Below, piece after piece: positions 51,360-64,000 of a stretch of DNA of 64,000 nt. The stretch's first letter is position 1. Every line of letters starts with the position of its first letter. Both the position numbers and the translations under genes were made by a program. This stretch comes from Geminicoccus roseus DSM 18922. Its GTDB lineage: Bacteria; Pseudomonadota; Alphaproteobacteria; Geminicoccales; Geminicoccaceae. Under the pieces are notes generated by a model. That model was not told the DNA's origin and did not search any database. It saw only the letters and a list, made by a program, of their open reading frames with translations. The stretch spans positions 3,372,196 through 3,436,195 of the forward strand of contig NZ_KE386572.1 of the NCBI RefSeq assembly GCF_000427665.1. Direction: 5' to 3'.

Positions 51360-51537
51360 ATGGAAACGTCGCGGAAACTTGCCGGAGGCGCCGATGCGAC
51401 GTCGCGTCGCAGGTGCGGGGACGTCGCTGCGGGACAAGTGGGGGGCAGTTGCGCCGCTAGACGGACCAGGGCGGGCAACGCTACTCCTCACCCCCGATCG
51501 GCCAGCTTCTTGGCCGGGCCACCAGCACGACCAGAGC

Positions 51538-52788
51538 ATGACCCGCTTCTCGATCTTCTCGCTCGCGAAGAACGCCATGACCGGCCATTCCAAGTGGCCG
51601 GAATACTGGCGCAGCCCCGAGCCGAAGCCGGCCTACGACGTCGTGATCATCGGCGGCGGCGGCCATGGCCTCGCCACCGCCTACTATCTCGCCAAGGTCC
51701 ACAAGATCACCAACGTCGCGGTGATCGAGCGGGGCTGGCTGGGCGGCGGCAACACCGGCCGCAACACCACGATCTGCCGCTCCAACTATCTCTACGACGA
51801 GAGCGCCGCCCTCTACGACCACGCCATGAAGCTGTGGGAAGGGCTGTCCACCGAGCTGAACTACAACGTGATGTTCAGCCAGCGCGGCGTGATGATGCTG
51901 GCGCACAACATCCACGACATGCAGGTCACCCGCCGCACGATCCACGCTAACCGGCTGAACGGGGTCGACAACGAGCTGCTGACGCCTGAGCAGGCCAAGG
52001 AATTCTGCCCGCCGCTCAACATCTCCAAGGACATCCGCTACCCGGTCATGGGCGCAGCGCTGCAGCGTCGCGGCGGCACCGCCCGGCATGACGCGGTGGC
52101 CTGGGGCTATGCCCGCGGCGCCGATTCCATGGGCGTCGACATCATCCAGAACTGCGAGGTGACCGGGATCCGGGTCGAGCAGGGCAGGGCGGTCGGCGTC
52201 GAGACCAGCCGCGGCTTCATCAAGGCCGGCAGGATCGGCTGCGTCGCCGCCGGCCACTCCTCGGTGGTGGCGTCCATGGCCGGGATCCAGCTGCCGCTGG
52301 AAAGCTTTCCGCTCCAGGCGCTGGTGTCCGAGCCGGTCAAGCCGGCCTTTCCCTGCGTGGTGATGAGCAACACGATCCACGCCTATATCAGCCAGTCGGA
52401 CAAGGGCGAGCTGGTGATCGGTGCGGGCACCGACCAGTTCATCTCCTATTCCCAGCGCGGCGGGATGCAGATCATCGAGCACACCCTGGAAGCGATCCTG
52501 GAGCTGTTCCCGATGTTCTCGCGGATGCGGATGCTGCGCTCCTGGGGCGGCATCGTCGACGTCACCCCCGACCGCTCGCCGATCATCGGCAAGACGCCGG
52601 TAGAGAACTTCTTCATCAATTGCGGCTGGGGTACTGGCGGCTTCAAGGCCACGCCCGGCTCGGGCCACGTCTTCGCCCACACGCTGGCGACCGGCGAGCC
52701 GCACCCGATCAACGCGCCGTTCGGGCTGGAGCGGTTCGTCAACGGCCGCCTGATCGACGAGGCGGCGGCGGCGGCGGTGGCGCATTGA
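51538..52788 (+). CDS. soxB: Sarcosine oxidase subunit beta
   Basis: 416 residues, length as in other SoxB. FAD-binding motif [18 protein letters not shown] (36-53) and the block [14 protein letters not shown], whose His184 should carry covalent FMN. The rest is a DAO-fold oxidoreductase ([15 protein letters not shown]). SoxBDAG oxidises sarcosine to glycine and passes the methyl to tetrahydrofolate. The ATG at 51538 gives [16 protein letters not shown], the typical SoxB start. The subunit order soxB-soxD-soxA-soxG is the usual one; glyA is not in front. Confidence 0.95.
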
Positions 52789-52849
52789 TGGCGCATCGCC
52801 TCCGGGCTTCCTCGTTCCGGCCTTCCCGTCCTTTCACAGGCTCCCGCCC

Positions 52850-53131
52850 ATGCTCCTGATTTCCTGTCCCTATTGCGGGCCCCGTGCGGAGACCGAGTTC
52901 CGCAACGGCGGCGAAGCCGGCATCGTGCGGCCGACCCGCAGCGCGGAGATGTCCGACGGCGAGTGGGCGAACTACGTGTTTACACGAACGAACCCGAAGG
53001 GCCGCTTCCACGAGCGCTGGTGCCATGTCCAGGGCTGCGGCCGCTGGTTCACCGCCGTGCGCGACACGGTGAGCGACGACTTTGAGGGCTTCCACAAGGT
53101 GGGCGAGCCGGTGCCGGAGAACGGCCGATGA
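52850..53131 (+). CDS. soxD: Sarcosine oxidase subunit delta
   Basis: 93 residues. The zinc site of the delta subunit is complete: Cys6 and Cys9 in SCPYCGPR, His59 in WCHVQGCGRWF and Cys63. Sits 61 bases after soxB and overlaps soxA by four (ATGA). It is a structural subunit of the heterotetramer. Confidence 0.95.
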   Translation: MLLISCPYCGPRAETEFRNGGEAGIVRPTRSAEMSDGEWANYVFTRTNPKGRFHERWCHVQGCGRWFTAVRDTVSDDFEGFHKVGEPVPENGR

Positions 53132-56100
53132 GCCAGAAGGCCCGCATCGCGCAGGGCGGCCGGATCGATCGCAGCCGGACGATCCGCTTCACCTTCGACG
53201 GCAAGAGCTACGCCGGCCATCCGGGCGACACCCTGGCCTCGGCGCTGCTCGCCAACGACGTCCACCTGGTCGGCCGCTCGTTCAAGTACCACCGCCCGCG
53301 CGGCTTCCTGTCCGCCGGCGCGGAGGAGCCGAACGCGCTGGTCCAGATCGAGATGGGCAACGGCCGCTCCGACCCGAACTTCAAGGCCACCCAGGTCGAG
53401 CTGTTCGACGGCCTGGTCGCCCTGAGCCAGAACCGCAAGGGCTCGCTGCGCTACGACCGCACCGCGGTCAACGACCGGCTCGCCGCGTTCCTGCCGGCCG
53501 GCTTCTACTACAAGACCTTCAAGTGGCCCGCCTCGTTCTGGACCAAGGTCTACGAGCCGCGCATCCGCGAGGCCGCCGGCCTGGGCAAGGCGCCGACCGA
53601 GCCCGACCCGGACCATTACCTGCACCGCCATGTCTGGACCGACGTGCTGGTGGTGGGCGGCGGCCCCGCCGGGATCGCCGCGGCGCTGGCCGCCGCGCGC
53701 ACCGGTGCCAGGGTCATCCTGTGCGACGAGCAGCCCGAGCTGGGCGGCTCGCTCCTGTCGGAGAGCGGCCGGGGCGTCACCGTCGACGAGGTCGCGCCGC
53801 AGGAATGGCTGGCGCGCGCGCGGGCCGAGCTGTCCCAGCATCCCGAGCTGACCGTGCTCACCCGCACGACCTGCTTTGGCTACTACGACCACAATTATCT
53901 GGGCCTCCTGGAGAAGGTCACCGACCATCTGAAGGATGCGCCGGCGGAGCTGCCGCGCCAGCGCCTGTGGCGGGTGCGCGCGAAGCAGGTGGTGATCGCG
54001 GCTGGCGCCATCGAGCGGCCCCTGGTGTTCCCGGACAACGACCGGCCCGGCATCATGCTGGCCTCGGCGGCGCGCACCTACCTGAACCGCTACGGCGTCC
54101 TGGTCGGCCGCGAGGTGGTGGTCTGCACCAGCGACGACAGCGCCTACGACGCGGCGCTCGACCTGCACGCGGCCGGCGCCAAGGTCACGGTGGTCGACCA
54201 GCGCCAGACGCCTATCGGCGAGCGGGTCGTCCAGGCGCAGACCGCGGGGATCACCATCCTGCGCGGTCGGGGCCCCGTCGGCAGCCATGGCCGCTTCCGG
54301 GTCTCGCAGGTCCATGTCCAGGCCCTGGACGAGGCGGGCCGGCCGATCCTGGGCCAGGTCCAGCCGCTGAACTGCGATGCGCTTCTGATGTGCGGCGGCT
54401 GGAACCCCACCGTGCACCTGTTCAGCCAGAGCCGCGGCAAGGTCCGCTACGACGACGGGCTGGCCTCGTTCGTGCCGGGCCGGGGCCATCAGCCCGAGCG
54501 GTCGGCCGGCGCCTGTGGCGGCTCGTTCGGCCTGGGAGCCGCGCTGGCCGAGGGGCTGGTTGCCGGCACCGAGGCGGCCCGGGCGGCCGGCTTCGAGGCC
54601 TTCGACACGCCGCCGCCGGCCGTCGCCGAACCGGTTGCCGGCCCGCACCAGCCGGTCTGGCTGCTGCAGGGCGACCGTCCGGGCGCGCGCGCCTGGGTCG
54701 ACTTTCAGAACGACGTGACCGCCAAGGACCTGAAGCTCGCCAACCGCGAGGGCTTCCGCTCGATCGAGCACGTCAAGCGCTACACCACCAACGGCATGGC
54801 CACCGACCAGGGCAAGACCAGCAACGTCACCGGCCTGGCGATCGTCGCCGAGAATCTGGCGGTGCCGATCCCCTCCGTCGGCACCACGACCTTCCGCCCG
54901 CCCTACACCCCCACGACGTTCGGGGCTTTCGCCGGCATCAACAAGGGCGACCTGTTCGACCCGATCCGCCGCACGCCCATGCATGGCTGGGCCGAGCGCA
55001 AGGGCGCGGTGTTCGAGGACGTGGGCCTGTGGAAGCGGGCCTGGTACTTCCCGAAGAACGGCGAGGACATGCACGCCGCGGTCGACCGCGAGTGCAAGGC
55101 GGTGCGGGATGGCGTCGGCATCTTCGACGCGACCACGCTCGGCAAGATCGACATCCAGGGCGCGGACGCCGCGGAGTTCCTCAACCGCATCTACACCAAC
55201 GCCTGGTCGAAGCTCGGCCTCGGCAAGTGCCGCTACGGGCTGATGCTGCGCGAGGACGGCATGGTGTTCGATGACGGCGTGACCAGCCGGATCGGCGAGC
55301 ACCACTACCACATGACCACCACCACCGGCGGCGCGCCCACCGTGCTGGCCTGGATGGAGAGCTGGCTGCAGACCGAGTGGCCGGAACTCAAGGTCTACCT
55401 GACCTCGGTGACGGAGCAGTGGGCAGTGATCGCGCTGCAGGGGCCGAAGGCGCGCGAGGTCCTGCAGTCGGTGGTCACCCGCGGCGACGTCTCTCGGGAC
55501 GCCTTCCCGCATCTGTCGGTGATCGAGGCCGAGATCGCCGGGGTGCCCGGCCGGATCTTCCGGATCAGCTTCACCGGCGAACTCGGCTACGAGGTGAACG
55601 TGCCGGCCTCCTATGGCGAGATCGTCATGGACGCCCTGTTCCGGGCTGGGCAGCCGCACGGCATCACCCCCTACGGCACCGAGGCCATGCACGTGCTGCG
55701 CGCGGAGAAGGGCTACATCATCGTCGGCCAGGAAACCGATGGCACGGTCACCCCGGCCGATCTCGGCATGGGCTGGGCGGTCAGCAAGCAGAAGGACTTC
55801 CTGGGCAAGCGCTCGCTGTCGCGCCCCGACATGCTCCGCCCGGACCGCAAGCAGCTGGTGGGCCTCCTGCCGGTGGACCCGAAGATCGTGCTCGACGAGG
55901 GCGCCCAGCTCCTGGAAACTGCCAAGGTCGAGATCCCGGCCAAAATGATCGGCCATGTGACGTCCAGCTACCATTCGGCCAATCTCGGCCGGAGCTTCGC
56001 CCTGGCCCTCCTGGCCGGAGGCCAGGCGCGCCATGGCCAGCGCCTGTGGGCCAGCCACGGGCAGGGCACCGTCGAGGTCGAGGTGACCGCGCCTTTGTTC

Positions 56101-56133
56101 ATCGATCCGGAAGGGACCCGGCTCAATGGTTGA
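53128..56133 (+). CDS. soxA: Sarcosine oxidase subunit alpha
   Basis: 1001 residues, normal for SoxA. An N-terminal ferredoxin-like domain (TIRFTFDGKSYAGHPGDTLASALLAN), an NAD-binding domain (DVLVVGGGPAGIAAALAAARTG) and a C-terminal GcvT-like folate domain (TFGAFAGINKGDLFDPIRRT, FTGELGYEVNVPAS) follow in order. It binds NAD+ and tetrahydrofolate and forms the channel to SoxB. It overlaps soxD by four bases and soxG by eight. Confidence 0.96.
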   Translation: MSQKARIAQGGRIDRSRTIRFTFDGKSYAGHPGDTLASALLANDVHLVGRSFKYHRPRGFLSAGAEEPNALVQIEMGNGRSDPNFKATQVELFDGLVALSQNRKGSLRYDRTAVNDRLAAFLPAGFYYKTFKWPASFWTKVYEPRIREAAGLGKAPTEPDPDHYLHRHVWTDVLVVGGGPAGIAAALAAARTGARVILCDEQPELGGSLLSESGRGVTVDEVAPQEWLARARAELSQHPELTVLTRTTCFGYYDHNYLGLLEKVTDHLKDAPAELPRQRLWRVRAKQVVIAAGAIERPLVFPDNDRPGIMLASAARTYLNRYGVLVGREVVVCTSDDSAYDAALDLHAAGAKVTVVDQRQTPIGERVVQAQTAGITILRGRGPVGSHGRFRVSQVHVQALDEAGRPILGQVQPLNCDALLMCGGWNPTVHLFSQSRGKVRYDDGLASFVPGRGHQPERSAGACGGSFGLGAALAEGLVAGTEAARAAGFEAFDTPPPAVAEPVAGPHQPVWLLQGDRPGARAWVDFQNDVTAKDLKLANREGFRSIEHVKRYTTNGMATDQGKTSNVTGLAIVAENLAVPIPSVGTTTFRPPYTPTTFGAFAGINKGDLFDPIRRTPMHGWAERKGAVFEDVGLWKRAWYFPKNGEDMHAAVDRECKAVRDGVGIFDATTLGKIDIQGADAAEFLNRIYTNAWSKLGLGKCRYGLMLREDGMVFDDGVTSRIGEHHYHMTTTTGGAPTVLAWMESWLQTEWPELKVYLTSVTEQWAVIALQGPKAREVLQSVVTRGDVSRDAFPHLSVIEAEIAGVPGRIFRISFTGELGYEVNVPASYGEIVMDALFRAGQPHGITPYGTEAMHVLRAEKGYIIVGQETDGTVTPADLGMGWAVSKQKDFLGKRSLSRPDMLRPDRKQLVGLLPVDPKIVLDEGAQLLETAKVEIPAKMIGHVTSSYHSANLGRSFALALLAGGQARHGQRLWASHGQGTVEVEVTAPLFIDPEGTRLNG

Positions 56134-56719
56134 GCGGATCGCGGGCACCACGCATCTGAACCTCAAGGCCCGCCCTTCCACCAAGGGGGCGCAGCTGCGG
56201 ATGCTGGAGCGGCCGTTCAAGGCCAAGGTCGGCCTGCGCGGCGGTTCCGACGTGGCGCGCGCCGTGGAACCGGTGCTGGGCTTCGCCCTGCCGCAGGGCG
56301 TGGGCCAGACCGGCTCCGGCTCCGGGGCCCATGCCTTCTGGATCGGCCCGGACGACTGGATCATCGTCTACGAGCCCGGCCGCGAGGCCCAGATCGCCCA
56401 GGCGCTGCGCGAGGCCTGCCAGGGCCTGCATCACGCGGTGATCGACATCACCGAGCGGATGACCACGATCTGCCTGGAGGGCCAGCCGCTCCGCCAGGTG
56501 CTCGCCGCCGGCTGCCCGCTGGACCTGCACCCCAGGGTGTTCAAGCCCGGCATGGTCCTGCAGAGCCATCTCGGCAAGGCCAACGTCATCCTGCACTATG
56601 TCGCCGGCAACGCGGACCGTCCGTTCGTGGACCTTTATACGAACCGTTCGTTCGCCGACTATGTGTGGAAGTATCTGGAAACCGCCGCGCGCGAGTTCGG
56701 CTACGAGATCGTGGCCTGA
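56126..56719 (+). CDS. soxG: Sarcosine oxidase subunit gamma
   Basis: 197 residues, GcvT-like fold with landmarks KVGLRGGSDVARAVE, WIGPDDWIIVYEPGRE and DITERMTTICLEG. It is the last subunit of the sarcosine oxidase operon and overlaps soxA by eight bases. The next gene starts 29 bases later in the same direction. Confidence 0.93.
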   Translation: MVERIAGTTHLNLKARPSTKGAQLRMLERPFKAKVGLRGGSDVARAVEPVLGFALPQGVGQTGSGSGAHAFWIGPDDWIIVYEPGREAQIAQALREACQGLHHAVIDITERMTTICLEGQPLRQVLAAGCPLDLHPRVFKPGMVLQSHLGKANVILHYVAGNADRPFVDLYTNRSFADYVWKYLETAAREFGYEIVA

Positions 56720-56748
56720 CCGGTCGGGGTAGAGGGAGCGAAGAACGG

Positions 56749-59199
56749 ATGAAGACCCAGGCGAGGCTCGTCATCGTCGGCGCCGGCATCGTCGGCTCCG
56801 CCACCGCCTACCATCTGGCGGAGATGGGCTACACCGATGTCTTGGTCGTCGATCAGGGCGACCTGCCGCATACCGGCGGTTCGACCAGCCATGCGCCGGG
56901 CGGGGTGTTCCAGACCAATCCCTCGCGGATGATGTCGACGCTCGCCAAGTACACGGTCAAGCTCCTCAACAGTCTCGAGCTGGACGGGCAGCCCTGCTTC
57001 CTGAAGGTCGGCGGCCTGGAAGTCTCCACCAGCGCCGAGCGCGACACCTACATCAAGTGGCGCCACGGCATCGCCCGCTCCTGGGGGATCCCCGCCGAGA
57101 TCGTCAGCCCGGAAAAGTGCCGCGAGCTGTCGCCGCTCATGGACACGAGCCAGGTCCGCCTGGGCTTTTGGACGCCCACCGACGGCATCGCCAAGCCGGT
57201 CCGGGCGACCGAGGCGATGATGCGCTATGCCAAGAGCCGCGGCATCGCGTTCGAGCCGCGGGTCGAGGTGCTGGACGTCCTGACCGAGAACGGCCGCGTG
57301 ATCGGCCTGGAGACCAGTAAGGGCCGGATCACCTGCGAGCAGGTGCTGGTCTGCGCCGGGATCTGGGGGCCGCGCCTGGGGCGGATGGCCGGCGTGCCGA
57401 TCCCGCTGATGCCCTGCGAGCACCAGTACGCCTGGACCCACGACCTGCCGGAACTGGCGGACGCGACCGAGGAGGCGACCCACGTCCTGCTGCGCCACCA
57501 GGACAAGTCGATGTACTACCGGCAGCACCAGAACCATTACGGCATCGGCAACTACCGTCACACCCCGCGCCTGGTCGAGGCGGACGACATCCGCAAGTTC
57601 GGCGAGACCCAGGTCATGCCGTCGATGAACCCGTTCACGCCCGAGGACTTCGCCGAGGCCGAGCAGGCAACCCGCGACCTGCTTCCGGCGGTGATGAAGG
57701 CCGGCGTGCGCGATGCCTTCAACGGCATGTTCAGCTTCACCCCCGATGGCGGCCCGGTCCTGGGCGAGAGCCTGGCGGTGAAGGGCTTCTGGGTGGCCGA
57801 GGCGGTCTGGATCACCCATGGCGGCGGCGTCGGCAAGGTGATGGCCGAGTGGATCGCCGCCGGCGAGCCGGAATGGGACGTCCACGAGGGCGACATCAAC
57901 CGGTTCGCCCGCCACCAGCAGACGCCGAAGTTCGTGCGCCGGCGCGGCTGGCAGCAGTACAAGGAAGTCTACGACGTCGTGCACCCGATGCAGCAGATGG
58001 AGGAGCCCCGCGGCCTGCGCCGCTCGCCCTTCTTCGGCCAGCAGAAGGACGCGGAGGCCGTGTTCTTCGACGCGGCGGGCTTCGAGCGCCCGCAATGGTA
58101 CGAGAGCAATGTGAGGCTGCTGGCCGGCCGCAACGCGCCCAGCCGCGACGAGTGGGGCAGCCGCTACTGGTCGCCGATCCAGGGGGCTGAGCACGAGCAG
58201 GTGCGCAAGGCCGCTGGCCTGTTCGACCTGACCGCCTTCACCAAGATCAGGGTGACCGGCAGCGGTGCGCGCGCCTTCCTGCAGCGCCTGGCCGCCAACG
58301 ACGTCGACAAGCCGGTCGGCAAGATCGTCTACACCGCCATGCTGAACGGCCATGGCGGCATCATGTGCGACCTGACCATCGCCCGCATGGCGCCGGAGGA
58401 GTTCTTGGTGCTGACCGGCGGCGGGGTCGGCATGCACGACCTGGGCTGGATCCGGGCGAACGCGCCGGTTGATGGCTCGGTGACGATCGAGGATGTCACC
58501 TCGCAATACTGCGCGGTGGGGCTTTGGGGGCCCAAGGCGCGCGAGATCCTGCAGTCGCTCACCGACGACGACGTGTCCCATGCCGGCCTGCCCTATTACG
58601 GCTGGAAGGACGTGCTGGTCGGCTATGTCCCGGCCATGGCCCTGCGCCTGTCCTATGTCGGCGAGCTCGGCTTCGAGATCTACACCCGCACCGAGTTCGG
58701 CGGGCAGCTCTGGGAGCTGCTGATGAAGGCCGGCGAGCCGCATGGCCTGATCCCGGCCGGGGCGGGCGCCATGGACTCCCTGCGCATCGAGAAGGGCTAC
58801 CGCCTCTGGGGCGCGGATATCGAGCAGGAAACCAACCCGCTGGAGGCGGGGCTTGCCTGGGCGGTCCGCTTCAAGAAGGGCGACTTCATCGGCCGGGCGA
58901 AGCTGCTCGACCTGAAAATGCAGCCGATGGCGCGCAAGCTGTGCTGCATGACCATCGACGACCCGGAGGCGACCCTGCTGGGCAAGGAGCCGATCTACGC
59001 CGATGGCCAGGTGGTCGGCTACGTCACCTCCGGCAATTACGGCTACTCGGTCGGCAAGTGGATCGCCTACGGGTACTTGCCGAGCGGCAAGACGGAGCCT
59101 GGCACGTCACTGCAGATCGACTATCTCGGCCGCCGCTTCGCCGCCGTGGTGGCGAGTGAGCCGCTGTTCGATCCGGAAGGCGCCCGCCTGAAGGCGTGA
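56749..59199 (+). CDS. Dimethylglycine dehydrogenase-like FAD/GcvT protein
   Basis: 816 residues. An FAD-binding DAO domain (RLVIVGAGIVGSATAYHLAE) has the STSHAPGG block with His48 at the covalent-FAD site of dimethylglycine and sarcosine dehydrogenases. A linker and a C-terminal GcvT domain follow (SYVGELGFEIYTRTEFGG, GAMDSLRIEKGYRLWGADI). Such enzymes remove a methyl from dimethylglycine or sarcosine onto folate. The ATG at 56749 has GAGGGAG about 13 bases upstream. Its place after soxBDAG suggests dimethylglycine, the step before sarcosine in betaine breakdown; substrate is inferred. Confidence 0.88.
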   Translation: MKTQARLVIVGAGIVGSATAYHLAEMGYTDVLVVDQGDLPHTGGSTSHAPGGVFQTNPSRMMSTLAKYTVKLLNSLELDGQPCFLKVGGLEVSTSAERDTYIKWRHGIARSWGIPAEIVSPEKCRELSPLMDTSQVRLGFWTPTDGIAKPVRATEAMMRYAKSRGIAFEPRVEVLDVLTENGRVIGLETSKGRITCEQVLVCAGIWGPRLGRMAGVPIPLMPCEHQYAWTHDLPELADATEEATHVLLRHQDKSMYYRQHQNHYGIGNYRHTPRLVEADDIRKFGETQVMPSMNPFTPEDFAEAEQATRDLLPAVMKAGVRDAFNGMFSFTPDGGPVLGESLAVKGFWVAEAVWITHGGGVGKVMAEWIAAGEPEWDVHEGDINRFARHQQTPKFVRRRGWQQYKEVYDVVHPMQQMEEPRGLRRSPFFGQQKDAEAVFFDAAGFERPQWYESNVRLLAGRNAPSRDEWGSRYWSPIQGAEHEQVRKAAGLFDLTAFTKIRVTGSGARAFLQRLAANDVDKPVGKIVYTAMLNGHGGIMCDLTIARMAPEEFLVLTGGGVGMHDLGWIRANAPVDGSVTIEDVTSQYCAVGLWGPKAREILQSLTDDDVSHAGLPYYGWKDVLVGYVPAMALRLSYVGELGFEIYTRTEFGGQLWELLMKAGEPHGLIPAGAGAMDSLRIEKGYRLWGADIEQETNPLEAGLAWAVRFKKGDFIGRAKLLDLKMQPMARKLCCMTIDDPEATLLGKEPIYADGQVVGYVTSGNYGYSVGKWIAYGYLPSGKTEPGTSLQIDYLGRRFAAVVASEPLFDPEGARLKA

Positions 59200-59847: not shown

Positions 59848-60531
59848 TCAGAACTGGTTCAGCGCCTGCTTGAGCGGATCGCTGGTCATGTTGACGACCG
59901 AGCCCTGCATGATCTCCTGGACCGTGACGTCCCGGCCGTACAGCGCCTTGTTCCAGGACGGCATCGGCGTGATCACCGTCCCGTCGACCGCCAGGCCGCC
60001 GAACAGTCCCTTGGTCTTGGCGAACAGGTAGATGTCCTCGCCGAAGTTCGGCGTGGTGCCGGCGCCGACCCCGGCCCCGGCGGTGCCGATCGCCGCGCTG
60101 GCATCCGCGCCCATCTTGAACGAGGTGGATGCCAGCAGCTTGTCGAGGGCTTCCTTGTTCATGATCGTGTAGATCGCGCTGGAGGACTGGCCGCCGATCT
60201 GCAGTCCGACGCTGCCGCCATAGAGGTCGTAGACCGCCGGCTCCGACCAGGCGCCCGTGGCGACGTCGCGGGTCAGCAGCACGCCGCGCCCGTACGATCC
60301 GCCCACGATGAAGCCGAGCTTGAACTGGGACGGCACGATCAGCACGCCATAGGCGTTCTGCACGTAGAGGCTGACCGTGGGCATGATCTGCTCGTCGGCC
60401 TGCAGCTCCAGCAGGGTGACCCGTGCCTGCTCCAGCAGCACCTCGGCATCATCTTCGGCGGCATGTGCCGGCGACCATGCGGCCAGCGCAGCCAGGGCCA
60501 GGACCGATGCCAAGAACCCTCTGCGACGCAT
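59848..60531 (-). CDS. Exported SYLF/YSC84-domain lipid-binding protein
   Basis: 227 residues. A signal peptide (RRRGFLASVLALAALAAWSPAHA) precedes a SYLF domain: AYGVLIVPSQFKLGFIVGGSYGRGVLL, YDLYGGSVGLQIGGQSS, DASAAIGTAGAGVGAGTTPNFGEDIYLFAKTKGLFGGLAVDG. SYLF proteins bind phosphoinositides or other lipids; bacterial ones are periplasmic with unclear role. GGAG lies just before the ATG at 60531. Divergent from the PEPC-like gene. Confidence 0.87.
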   Translation of the reverse strand: MRRRGFLASVLALAALAAWSPAHAAEDDAEVLLEQARVTLLELQADEQIMPTVSLYVQNAYGVLIVPSQFKLGFIVGGSYGRGVLLTRDVATGAWSEPAVYDLYGGSVGLQIGGQSSSAIYTIMNKEALDKLLASTSFKMGADASAAIGTAGAGVGAGTTPNFGEDIYLFAKTKGLFGGLAVDGTVITPMPSWNKALYGRDVTVQEIMQGSVVNMTSDPLKQALNQF

Positions 60532-60702
60532 GCCGTGCTCCAACGAAGAAATCGGTTTTGGCTCCGGGGTTTGGGTAGGCCATCGACGAGGGGGTGGCAA
60601 GCGGCCAGGAAATCGCGCCGCGCATCGATGCACGGAACGTGTTGCATCGCACAAATTCCGCGTCACACTATGTTCCATTCACGCAGCGGGGAACGGGTGA
60701 GC

Positions 60703-63666
60703 ATGCTCGACATCGACGGCGACAGGAAACTCAGTGCGGCTCTGGAACAGGAGCCGGACGCGCTGGACAAGCCTGCCGCCGCGTTGCGCACTGCCCATGA
60801 CAGCCTGGCCGGCCACCGTACCCGGGTCGACACCGATCCCTTCACCAGCCCGATCCGGCTGATGGCGCTCGACCTCAAGCGGGCCATGGACCGCGGCGAG
60901 ATCGACATGCCGACCCTGGACGCAATGATCGGCCGGCTGTCGAGCGAGGCGTTCGTCGGCCGCGCCGAGCGCCTGTCCGCCTATCTGGGCGAGGTCGGGC
61001 TGGAGGCCAACAGCGCCACGGTCGAGCGGCTGATCCGCGACATGGCGGAAGGTCCCGCTGGCGTGCTGCCCGCCGCCGAATTCGGCACCAAGGTGGGCAG
61101 GGTGCTCTATGGCTTCGTGTTCACCGCCCATCCGACCTTCAGCCTGTCCAACAAGCTCCAGCAGGCGATCGTCGGCCTGGCCCTGACCCGGGACGAGGCG
61201 GAGCGCCGCGCGATCATGGCCGAGGTCGAGCGGCTGCCGCATGCGCCGGAGCCCCAGCTGGACCTGGCTGAGGAGTTCCGCCAGTCGGTGGCGGCGATCG
61301 CCCAGGTCCGCGCCGCCCTGATGCGGGTCTACGCGATCGTCCTGAAGGTGGCGGAGGAGCTCTATCCGGACCAGTGGCGCGGCATCACGCCGAAGCTGGC
61401 CTCGGTGGCGAGCTGGGTCGGCTACGACATGGACGGCCGCTCCGACATTCCCTGGACCGCCACGCTCGCCCACCGGCTGATGATCCAGGAAAAGCAGCTC
61501 GCCGCCTGGCACGAGGAGATCCGCACGATCGCCCAGTCGGTCGACGGCGACGACACCCTGGCGGCCTCCCTGGAGCTGGTCGAGGCGCGCATCGTGCTGA
61601 GCGCCGAGGCATCGCGCTCGCTGATCGACCTCCTGCAGGCGGCCAGGCCCGACCAGGACGAGTGGTGGGAGCGGCTGGCGCGGGTCAGCCGCCGCTCACT
61701 GGGCAAGGGGGCTGGGCGGATCACCGGCGGCAAGGAGCTGGCGTCGCTGGTCCAGCGGGTCCTGGACCGGGTCGAGGACGGCGAGCTCGCCCGACGCCTC
61801 TGGCTGCTCCATGCCGACATGGCGGCGCACGGGCTGGGCCTCGCCCGCACCCACATGCGGATCAACGCGATCCAGCTCCACAACGCGATCCGCAAGACGA
61901 TCGGGATGGAGCACGCCCCGGACGATCCATCCTACCGCCAGTCCTATGTCGAGGCGGCCGCCAAGCTGATCGAGGAGGTGAAGCCGGTCTCGGTCCATCT
62001 CGGAACGATCAACGGCGAGAAGGCGACGGCCAAGCGCATCTTCATGCTGGTCGAGCAGATGCTGGAGCTGGTCGACCGCGACGAGCCGATCCGCTTCCTG
62101 ATTGCCGAGTGCGAGACCTCCTTCACCCTCCTGGCCGCGCTCTACTTCGCCAAGCTGTTCGGGGTCGAGGACCGCATCGACATCTCGCCGCTGTTCGAGA
62201 CCCGCACCGCCCTGGTCCGCGGCGTCGAGATCGTGGCGGGCGCGCTCGAGGTGCCGGTCTACCGCGACTACATCAAGAAGCGTGGCCGCCTGTGCGTGCA
62301 GACCGGTTTCTCCGATGCCGGCCGCTTCCTCGGCCAGACCGCCGCCTGCTACCTGATCGAGAAGATCCGCCTGTCGCTGGCGCCGCTTCTGGAAAAGCAC
62401 GGACTGACCGGCGTCGAGCTGGTGATCTTCGACACCCATGGCGAGAGCATCGGCCGGGGCGCCCATCCGGGCAGCTTCCGCGACCGCTTCGCCTATTACG
62501 ACACGGCGGAGAGCCGCCGCCGGTTCCGGGATGCCGGCCTCGTGGTCCGCGAGGAGACCAGCTACCAGGGCAGCGACGGCTACCAGTACTTCCTGACCGA
62601 GACCACCGCCTTCGCGGTCGTCACCCGGGTCCTGGAGCACTGCCTGGCGCCGATCGACGACACGCCGGACCCGTTCTATGCCGAGCGGGTCTATGTCGGC
62701 GAGTTCTTCACCTCGATCGAGCAGTTCAACGAGGAGGTGATCCAGAACCGCGACTATGCGGCGCTGCTGGGTGCCTGGGGCACCAACATGCTCTGGCAGA
62801 CCGGCTCGCGCCCGGCCAAGCGCCAGTATGACGGCGCCACCGGCCGGATGAGCCTGGACCATCCCTCGCAGCTGCGCGCGATCCCGCACAACGCGATCCT
62901 GCAGCAGCTGGGCATGCTGGCGAACACGATCGGCGGGGTCGGCCGGGCGATCGACAAGGATCCGGAGACCTTCCACCGCCTCTATGCCGAGAGCCCGCGC
63001 TTCCGCCGGATGCTTGGCATGGTCGAGCACGCCTTCAAATGGACCGACCTGGAGGTCGTGAAGGCCTATATCGACCTGTACGACCCGGGGACATGGCTGG
63101 CCCGCGCCCAGTCCCATGACGACGACGCCCGGATCGAGGAACTGCGCGAGGTCGCCGGGGTGTTCGAGCGGATGCGCCTGCACGAGCGGCTGGTGCGCAT
63201 CCACCGGGTGTTCCTGCGCGACTACATGGACCTGGCCCGGGCCCTGAAGGAGCACCGCCGCCGCACCCGCGACGCCGGGGCCACCCCGATCGTCGTGGAC
63301 CGCGAGGCGCGCGACAACATCCACCTGCTGCACGCCCTGCGCCTGGCGCTGATGCAGAAGCTGGACGTGCTGGCCATCCACGTCCCGGACTTCTCCGACC
63401 GGCACAGCACCAGCCGTTCCGGCATCGTCGCCAGGCTCACCCAGCTCGACGTGGAGCCGGCGATCGACATCCTGCGCGAGGTGTTCCCGATGACCGAGCC
63501 GCAGATGCGGGCTCATGACTTCGGCGTCGAAGCGACCTATCGCAGCGAGGAAAGCCAGAGCTATGGCCAGGAACACGCGCTGATCTTCGAGCCGATCCTG
63601 CGCCTGTACGGCCAGATCCGCCGGATCGGCAGCGCGGTCGTGCATCATCTGAGCGCGGTCGGCTGA
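60703..63666 (+). CDS. Divergent phosphoenolpyruvate carboxylase-like protein
   Basis: 987 residues, the PEPC fold by overall motif order. Conserved: the catalytic-type His143 in TAHPT, metal ligands Glu499 in SPLFET and Asp538 in GFSDAGRF, Arg585 in ESIGRG, Arg703 in GSRPAKR and Arg725 in QLRAIPH. Altered: the GYSDSAK Lys is Arg541, and the FHGRGG loop reads FDTHGES, so the usual His is Asp577 and the usual Arg is His579. The protein is about 100 residues longer than E. coli PEPC (883). The ATG at 60703 follows GGGTGAG; ATG at 60670 lacks a site. Anaplerotic activity is uncertain. Confidence 0.75.
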   Translation: MLDIDGDRKLSAALEQEPDALDKPAAALRTAHDSLAGHRTRVDTDPFTSPIRLMALDLKRAMDRGEIDMPTLDAMIGRLSSEAFVGRAERLSAYLGEVGLEANSATVERLIRDMAEGPAGVLPAAEFGTKVGRVLYGFVFTAHPTFSLSNKLQQAIVGLALTRDEAERRAIMAEVERLPHAPEPQLDLAEEFRQSVAAIAQVRAALMRVYAIVLKVAEELYPDQWRGITPKLASVASWVGYDMDGRSDIPWTATLAHRLMIQEKQLAAWHEEIRTIAQSVDGDDTLAASLELVEARIVLSAEASRSLIDLLQAARPDQDEWWERLARVSRRSLGKGAGRITGGKELASLVQRVLDRVEDGELARRLWLLHADMAAHGLGLARTHMRINAIQLHNAIRKTIGMEHAPDDPSYRQSYVEAAAKLIEEVKPVSVHLGTINGEKATAKRIFMLVEQMLELVDRDEPIRFLIAECETSFTLLAALYFAKLFGVEDRIDISPLFETRTALVRGVEIVAGALEVPVYRDYIKKRGRLCVQTGFSDAGRFLGQTAACYLIEKIRLSLAPLLEKHGLTGVELVIFDTHGESIGRGAHPGSFRDRFAYYDTAESRRRFRDAGLVVREETSYQGSDGYQYFLTETTAFAVVTRVLEHCLAPIDDTPDPFYAERVYVGEFFTSIEQFNEEVIQNRDYAALLGAWGTNMLWQTGSRPAKRQYDGATGRMSLDHPSQLRAIPHNAILQQLGMLANTIGGVGRAIDKDPETFHRLYAESPRFRRMLGMVEHAFKWTDLEVVKAYIDLYDPGTWLARAQSHDDDARIEELREVAGVFERMRLHERLVRIHRVFLRDYMDLARALKEHRRRTRDAGATPIVVDREARDNIHLLHALRLALMQKLDVLAIHVPDFSDRHSTSRSGIVARLTQLDVEPAIDILREVFPMTEPQMRAHDFGVEATYRSEESQSYGQEHALIFEPILRLYGQIRRIGSAVVHHLSAVG

Positions 63667-63694: not shown

Positions 63695-64000
63695 ATGAAC
63701 GGCCTGTACCCGGCGACCTCGATGCCCGACCGGGACTGGTGGGCGGCGCTTTGGCCGGATCCAGCCGGCACGCTCCGGTCCCTGGGGGTCCGCCCGGGCA
63801 TGACGGCGGTCGACCTTTGCTGCGGCGATGGCTACTTCACCGCGGCCCTGGCCGGGCTCCTCGACGGCCGGGTCTACGCTTTGGATCTCGATCCCGCCAT
63901 GATCGCCAGGGCCAGGGCCGAACTCGCCGCGCAGGACCGCGCGGTGCTGGGCTGGCTCAACGCCGACGCCGGCGAGGTCGCCAGCCTGCTGCCGGACCCG
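63695..64000 (+). CDS. Class I SAM-dependent methyltransferase, N-terminal part
   Basis: 102 codons lie in the window; the rest is cut off by the right edge. Motif I is TAVDLCCGDGYFTAALAGLL, then RVYALDLDPAMIARARAEL, of a Rossmann-fold methyltransferase. Fairly close to the PEPC-like gene (28 bases), so it may be co-transcribed. The substrate cannot be told from this part. The ATG at 63695 has GGGGG upstream. Confidence 0.8.
   Translation, partial: MNGLYPATSMPDRDWWAALWPDPAGTLRSLGVRPGMTAVDLCCGDGYFTAALAGLLDGRVYALDLDPAMIARARAELAAQDRAVLGWLNADAGEVASLLPDP

Follow-up and report, generated by a model that had tools for sequence, protein, structure and literature searches.

Few carboxylases have been studied as thoroughly as phosphoenolpyruvate carboxylase (PEPC), whose HGRGG loop is regarded as indispensable. 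As described in the relevant passages of PMC10176493 and PMC8100219, bicarbonate attacks the phosphate of metal-bound phosphoenolpyruvate (PEP) to give carboxyphosphate and the enolate, a conserved histidine of a flexible loop deprotonates carboxyphosphate, and CO2 adds to the enolate. Here we describe DTH-PEPC, a PEPC homologue lacking the HGRGG loop, encoded in a 64,000-nucleotide stretch of the Geminicoccus roseus DSM 18922 genome (contig NZ_KE386572.1, positions 3,372,196 to 3,436,195; hereafter the window). It belongs to a single, strongly supported clade that is almost confined to Alphaproteobacteria. Gene neighbourhoods and genome comparisons suggest that it most likely still works as a PEPC, its loop rebuilt and its aspartate/malate site lost, and that a new reaction is the less likely reading.

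The 987-residue product matches a single Pfam family, PF00311 (PEPcase), at 85.8 bits (cut-off 22.4) over profile positions 100-822 of 919; since the curated cut-off is passed and the match spans most of the profile, it belongs to PF00311 at superfamily level. Against the NCBIfam PEPC equivalog PRK00009 it scores 87.3 with a cut-off of 815, so the canonical whole-protein score is not reached, and in a search of solved structures every significant match is a PEPC. The reading frame is already open from an upstream ATG at 60463. The G. harenae protein is 86% identical over residues 28-987, and two contig-end pieces of G. flavidas are 77% and 89% identical, the 77% match (L034) covering residues 1-384. 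Because nonsynonymous divergence from G. harenae (dN) is 0.093 and synonymous divergence (dS) is 0.435, a dN/dS of about 0.21, the gene is under purifying selection.

Active-site positions were read against E. coli PEPC (Ppc, sequence from NC_000913) in a table of 95 non-redundant divergent rows and 31 canonical rows, E. coli included. Five fragments (L026, L027, L031, L033, L034) and 10 near-copies more than 97% identical had been dropped from the divergent side, and one near-copy from the canonical side. Alignment to the E. coli enzyme with phmmer has no gap across the loop and high posterior marks, setting gvelvifdthgesigrg against GIELTLFHGRGGSIGRG; a global profile-profile alignment, when forced, puts the loop in the same register, its own confidence there being only 3 of 9. 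The features are as follows, with counts for the divergent rows unless stated.

60703..63666, plus strand: coding sequence of DTH-PEPC, divergent PEP carboxylase of 987 amino acids; ATG at 60703, PF00311 match
61123..61137, plus strand: TAHPT; His143 is E. coli His138 (general base), H in 95/95 divergent and 31/31 canonical rows
61420..61437, plus strand: GYDMDG (canonical GGDRDG); Arg253 lost, Met in the window protein
61858..61860, plus strand: Arg386, which is E. coli Arg396; kept, 95/95
62197..62199, plus strand: Glu499, which is metal ligand Glu506; kept, 95/95
62305..62325, plus strand: GFSDAGR; Asp538 is metal ligand Asp543, D in 95/95, and Arg541 replaces Lys546
62428..62460, plus strand: loop FDTHGESIGRG replacing FHGRGGSIGRG in both the phmmer and the profile-profile alignment; Arg585, which is Arg587, kept
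62803..62823, plus strand: GSRPAKR; Arg703 and Arg707 are Arg699 and Arg703, kept, 95/95 each
62875..62877, plus strand: Arg725, which is E. coli Arg713; kept, 95/95
63220..63663, plus strand: enlarged C-terminal segment, 147 residues vs 51 in E. coli past position 832

A preliminary description of this gene had claimed that FDTHGESIGRG stands for FHGRGGSIGRG with loss of the His and the first Arg, that the Lys of GYSDSAK is Arg, and that the metal ligands, the TAHPT His and the late Arg residues are kept, and each of these claims held in the larger alignment. The loop replacements from E. coli to the window protein are H579 to D577, G580 to T578, R581 to H579 and G583 to E581, and K546 becomes R541. 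Shifted equivalents of the lost loop residues, named in that description as grounds for refuting it, were looked for nearby, and only the His now at the Arg581 place was found. Kept by alignment are the Mg/Mn ligands Glu499 and Asp538, the base His143 and the counterparts of Arg396, Arg587, Arg699 and Arg713; in the full table H138, R396, E506, D543, R587, R699, R703 and R713 are kept without exception in both sets of rows.

The replaced positions are equally characteristic of the clade. Among the divergent rows, position 579 is D in 66, N in 27 and S in 2, position 580 is T in all 95, position 581 is H in 94 and G in one, and position 583 is E in 92 and D in three; neither H579 nor R581 occurs. 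Position 546 is R in 95/95 divergent vs K in 31/31 canonical rows, and position 253, Arg in all 31 canonical rows, is Arg in no divergent row (L45, T29, M10, V4, I3, H3, Q1). All six positions (253, 546, 579, 580, 581 and 583) are invariant in the canonical rows. Exceptions to the loop within the clade are TGGES in L168, E to D in L024, L148 and L152, and YSTHGES in L170, and the divergent pattern was found in none of 30 canonical loci (L035-L064). Because the loop recurs in 95 relatives, and the other rows of a 40-row alignment are 29-53% identical to the window protein, a change through chance is excluded. The low standard-model scores could have hinted at a paralogue in decay, a faulty alignment or a sequencing error, and nothing else favours any of these; given the long open frames in the relatives used, the dN/dS ratio, the loop shared across the clade and the ungapped alignment to E. 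coli PEPC, such an explanation retains virtually no probability and is refuted by conservation.

A quick tree of 75 rows (LG+G4), a check proposed in the preliminary description, took in 44 of the 95 divergent and 25 of the 31 canonical rows. The 44 divergent rows make up one side of a branch with a Shimodaira-Hasegawa-like approximate likelihood ratio (SH-aLRT) support of 100, the stem being 1.46 changes per column long, and the 25 canonical rows likewise group on one side of a branch, with the window protein outside the canonical clade; the tree program gave warnings about long branches and unequal residue composition. Across 397 sampled genomes of the phylum the clade was present in 31 at more than 850 bits, all 31 in the window's class, and the best match outside that class scored 63.8 bits. 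In the window's family 28 of 31 searched genomes have the gene, G. roseus included; the exceptions are G010 and G020, without a match, and G005, with a canonical-level match. A Burkholderia pyrrocinia replicon carries a divergent copy, which shows transfer outside the class. Viral contigs scanned with the clade profile yielded no relative, and four matches in phage records (58-66 bits, about 24% identity) are at canonical level. Two of the four named records with the clade call the protein PEPC, one calls it a hypothetical protein and one leaves it unannotated.

Six further PF00311 proteins (L081, L097, two tandem copies in L101, L104 and L105) were seen in five alphaproteobacterial genomes of 1.8-2.6 Mb. 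Their loops read FEGGS.., HGRGRGDS, AHGGGMDP or FDGGGND, the H138, E506 and D543 positions are kept, and they lie outside the canonical and divergent clades, several on very long branches.

Where no passage is cited, the roles given here to E. coli residues are assumed ones. We take H138 to be the histidine that deprotonates carboxyphosphate, R581 to contact the PEP phosphate, the loop positions replaced here to contact, in known enzymes, both bicarbonate and the phosphate of PEP, and K546 to be the equivalent of Flaveria Lys600. Lys600 is one of four bicarbonate-site residues, and both Km values rise when it is replaced by Arg or Thr, according to the part of PMC6363079 that treats it. Altered kinetics would be expected for the PEPC activity of the clade.

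We consider it probable that the clade consists of active, bicarbonate-dependent PEPCs, separate and mainly alphaproteobacterial, which perform the usual chemistry with a rebuilt (D/N)-T-H-G-(E/D) loop. The invariant metal, base and Arg positions and the near-invariance of the new loop in 95 relatives support this, as does purifying selection. Further support, described below, comes from a serine-cycle operon in one relative, from canonical ppc in the same place in G005, from co-occurrence with canonical PEPC and with pyruvate carboxylase below expectation, and from the searches of the window's genome that found no other carboxylating gene. PEP would bind the metal and bicarbonate would attack its phosphate, so that carboxyphosphate and the enolate form; His143 would help CO2 release from carboxyphosphate, and the enolate would then be carboxylated. 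Least certain are the loop's own contributions: His579 at the Arg581 place and Arg541 for Lys546 may take over the anion contacts, and Glu581 and Asp/Asn577 may order the loop. The role in this bacterium would be C3-to-C4 replenishment, and in at least one relative the PEPC step of the serine cycle.

A bolder version, which we regard as rather improbable, has the D-x-H-x-E spacing bind a second divalent metal or form a charge relay that replaces Arg581/His579, so that a mechanistically distinct PEPC (or an other-acceptor PF00311 enzyme) would have replaced the textbook enzyme in a large part of Alphaproteobacteria; Asn as the first loop residue in 27 of 95 rows speaks against a strict metal triad. 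That the protein is instead a PEPC-derived non-catalytic regulator binding PEP or a metabolite, as the loss of several residues invariant in canonical rows might suggest, is highly improbable: even at identities as low as about 30% the metal ligands, the base and the anion-binding Arg residues are all unchanged, which binding alone would not need, and the gene holds the enzyme's place in an operon.

That operon is in genome G690 (locus L170), where the order is a glyoxylate-type aminotransferase (573 bits to BhcA, under the cut-off of 650), malyl-CoA lyase (427 bits to PDB 5ugr), malate-CoA ligase beta (716 vs a cut-off of 604), ligase alpha and the divergent PEPC; with all candidates scored, no other PF00311 match was found in this genome. 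In G005 (L160) a malyl-CoA-lyase relative 63% identical to the G690 lyase, ligase beta (703 vs 604), ligase alpha, a short 2-hydroxyacid dehydrogenase relative and canonical ppc are grouped. The gene lists given in parts of PMC3615186 and PMC5023235 have adjacent-numbered mclA/ppc1/mtkB/mtkA in Methylosinus and MtkA/MtkB/Ppc1/Mcl in Methyloversatilis, respectively. Since ppc stands beside mtk and lyase genes in G005, Methylosinus and Methyloversatilis, the divergent gene, judged by gene order, occupies the ppc slot of a serine-cycle operon in G690.

A sucCD/mtkAB-type pair also lies upstream of the divergent gene in four of five f35 genomes (L075, L141, L142 and L143, not L144) and in Phyllobacterium (L110). 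The ligase type is ambiguous in L075 and L142 and nearer to succinate in L110, and therefore only the L170 operon is unambiguous. The notion that every adjacent sucCD pair is a malate-CoA ligase was rejected: of the beta subunits of L075, L110, L142, L160 and L170, only L170 and the canonical L160 are over the malate-ligase cut-off. Clustering of neighbours at 45 loci (40 with the divergent gene) gave no recognisable conserved partner beyond the gene itself, antisense shadow open reading frames and common families.

Co-occurrence was assessed in 387 genomes of the class, with PF00311 in 113 and pyruvate carboxylase over its cut-off in 65. The 113 were classed as 39 canonical, 67 divergent and 8 odd, one genome being in the first two groups. 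The odd genomes (G040, G130, G159, G172, G292, G295, G358 and G417) were put in neither class, three of them (G159, G172 and G295) without loop reading; the G172 matches are pieces from several frames. A genome was called divergent from its loop in 66 of 67 cases and from score alone in G244, and canonical from its loop in 30 of 39 cases and from score in the rest. Mostly the best 2 candidates were scored per genome, so genomes with both kinds are possibly undercounted; 21 fully scored genomes agree.

Pyruvate carboxylase and the divergent gene occur together in 2 of 387 genomes (expected 11.25, one-sided P 0.0002), canonical and divergent PEPC in 1 (expected 6.75, P 0.004), and pyruvate carboxylase and canonical PEPC in 4 (expected 6.55, P 0.18), with P values that ignore relatedness. 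Within eight families (34 genomes), picked because both kinds occur there, 1 of 34 genomes has both (expected 5.67, P 0.0013). The genome with both is G272, of a Methylobacterium-like genus, whose locus L095 shares neighbours with M. bullatum L108. In the window's own family, G005 has the canonical enzyme (779.8 bits) and, with all candidates scored, no divergent one. None of canonical PEPC, divergent PEPC and pyruvate carboxylase is carried by 215 of the 387 genomes, and the pattern is therefore one of avoidance, not of universal need.

These results bear on the possibility, which we judge unlikely, that the clade is an active PF00311 enzyme with a different reaction, binding PEP or a PEP-like phosphoenol acid while the loop changes the acceptor or outcome (PEP hydrolysis, another carboxylation or a decarboxylation). 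It would account for the fixed change, across the clade, of loop positions that presumably contact the PEP phosphate and bicarbonate, and for the presence of both enzymes in Methylobacterium-like genomes. It could also fit the neighbours of two divergent genes. In Burkholderia pyrrocinia (L107, 7257-11816) the gene is flanked by relatives of an RraA-type aldolase/oxaloacetate decarboxylase and of glyoxylate reductase. In Sphingobium (L109) the order is a 2-hydroxyacid dehydrogenase relative, a phosphotransferase-annotated gene, enolase (over its cut-off, two genes upstream), a fumarylacetoacetate-hydrolase relative and the divergent gene; this order would also fit a path from glycerate through 2-phosphoglycerate and PEP to oxaloacetate. 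The serine-cycle operon in G690, a genome with no other PF00311 match, the within-family exclusion with canonical PEPC and the retention of H138 in 95/95 rows all argue against a different reaction. Of the preliminary description's two proposals, that of a rebuilt active site in a separate subfamily is well supported by the alignment and by the clade's SH-aLRT of 100. The other, in which the reaction itself has changed, for example to the binding of PEP with no carboxylation, lacks support and becomes less likely through the G690 ppc slot, co-occurrence below expectation and the invariant metal, base and Arg residues. The L107 gene lies in a 5-oxoprolinase and amino-acid transport region.

The window's genome (5.7 Mb in 5 contigs, 99% complete) was searched for other carboxylating genes; for canonical ppc and pyruvate carboxylase the preliminary description had proposed such a check. 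It has no PF00311 match besides DTH-PEPC, and so no canonical PEPC. No pyruvate carboxylase over the cut-off was found, the best match covering only model positions 1-450 (2 of 23 candidates scored), and crotonyl-CoA carboxylase/reductase over the cut-off is absent as well (best 91.5 vs 378.55). DTH-PEPC is the only PEP- or pyruvate-carboxylating gene found in searches that covered PF00311, pyruvate carboxylase, crotonyl-CoA carboxylase/reductase and the ATP- and GTP-dependent PEP carboxykinases (PEPCK), and because of this an anaplerotic role would fit. Since neither ATP-PEPCK nor GTP-PEPCK was found when searched, gluconeogenesis may run by another route such as pyruvate phosphate dikinase. 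The genome also encodes a protein 76% identical to the malyl-CoA-lyase relative of G005.

The chain is 987 residues long vs 883 in E. coli, close to the excess of about 100 residues reported in the preliminary description, and the extra length lies near the C terminus; past E. coli position 832 the clade median is 143 residues vs 46 in canonical rows. In this region, where the alignment is weak, the K773 position is W780 in the window protein and mostly hydrophobic or aromatic in the clade (K in 1/95), the R832 position is D840 (D90/E5 in the clade), and E. coli N881 has no clear counterpart. The aspartate/malate feedback site thus appears to be lost in the clade. Methylosinus Ppc1 was placed by its authors among "non-regulated" serine-cycle PEPCs, in the part of PMC3615186 that discusses it; given this precedent and the predicted loss of the effector site, neither aspartate nor malate is likely to affect enzymes of the clade.

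Several observations weigh against an active PEPC with the usual chemistry. R581, H579 and K546 are replaced in the clade although invariant in 31 canonical rows, and R581 is important in the E. coli enzyme. Structure prediction for the window protein, from its alignment with three Geminicoccus loci, gave a mean predicted local distance difference test score (pLDDT) of 40.7, too low for a fold search. Canonical and divergent genes occur together in all five genomes checked of the Methylobacterium-like genus (G272 and 4 further), and the two are therefore not always interchangeable. Most neighbourhoods lack a conserved partner among the neighbours listed, and the ligase beside the gene in L110 and the f35 genomes scores as well or better as a succinate-CoA ligase. 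Malate-CoA ligase over the cut-off occurs in 19 of 387 class genomes, of which 4 have the divergent gene only (G153, G377, G381 and G382), 1 both kinds (G272), 2 the canonical gene (G214 and G311), 1 fragments (G172) and 11 no PF00311; at 650 bits or more (13 genomes) the same groups number 3, 1, 2, 1 and 6. Finally, isocitrate lyase, present in the window's genome as two matched halves of one frame, offers another route to C4 acids. As a separate matter, a simple rule by which malate-CoA ligase is always accompanied by a PEPC of one kind or the other was rejected, 11 of the 19 being without a PF00311 match.

Upstream of DTH-PEPC the window holds a sarcosine oxidase set (FAD subunit, SoxD, alpha subunit and SoxG) followed by a DAO/GCV_T protein (51448-59196, plus strand); the set suggests methyl-glycine breakdown supplying C1 units and glycine. 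A Ysc84/SYLF-type gene (59848-60678, minus strand) lies between and is divergent from DTH-PEPC. Downstream, a methyltransferase gene (63695-64000, plus strand) starts 28 bases past the PEPC stop and continues beyond the window end.

A clade that lacks HGRGG and yet stands in the enzyme's place in an operon and in genomes leaves two possibilities: the list of residues accepted as required for catalysis is incomplete, or many Alphaproteobacteria are annotated with a PEPC that they do not have. Either answer alters metabolic models, and carbon-fixation engineering could gain a useful part from a PEPC whose site is rebuilt and which its usual inhibitors do not affect. Literature searches of open-licence PMC papers found no description of the clade among the matches listed. 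The portions seen of PMC2890560 (Rhodospirillum centenum) and PMC8307300 treat PEPC in Alphaproteobacteria without separating such a clade, their enzymes not having been compared with it here.

Compared with canonical PEPC (PF00311/PRK00009; E. coli Ppc, PDB 1FIY, 1QB4, 1JQN), the clade shares homology over most of its length, the metal ligands, H138, R396, R587, R699, R703 and R713. It differs in having (D/N)THG(E/D) for HGRGG, K546R, loss of R253 and aspartate-site residues that are mostly not kept; the window protein has a C-terminal segment about 96 residues longer than that of E. coli, falls in a separate clade and scores far from the equivalog cut-off. We take archaeal-type PEPC to be PF14010. 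There, too, the PEPC reaction has a second protein of a very different kind, but its subunits are of 55-60 kDa in the account given in part of PMC8100219, whereas the clade is full-size and the window protein has only PF00311 in Pfam. Plant bacterial-type PEPC (BTPC), named in the same passage, is by description also a divergent full-size PEPC class. The PEP-binding residues of Methylosinus trichosporium OB3b Ppc1 are reported as conserved in the passage of PMC3615186 that describes it, which by this description would set it apart from the clade. Like the divergent gene of G690, it has its slot beside mtkB, mtkA and mclA, and like the clade it lacks the inhibitor-site Lys and Asn.

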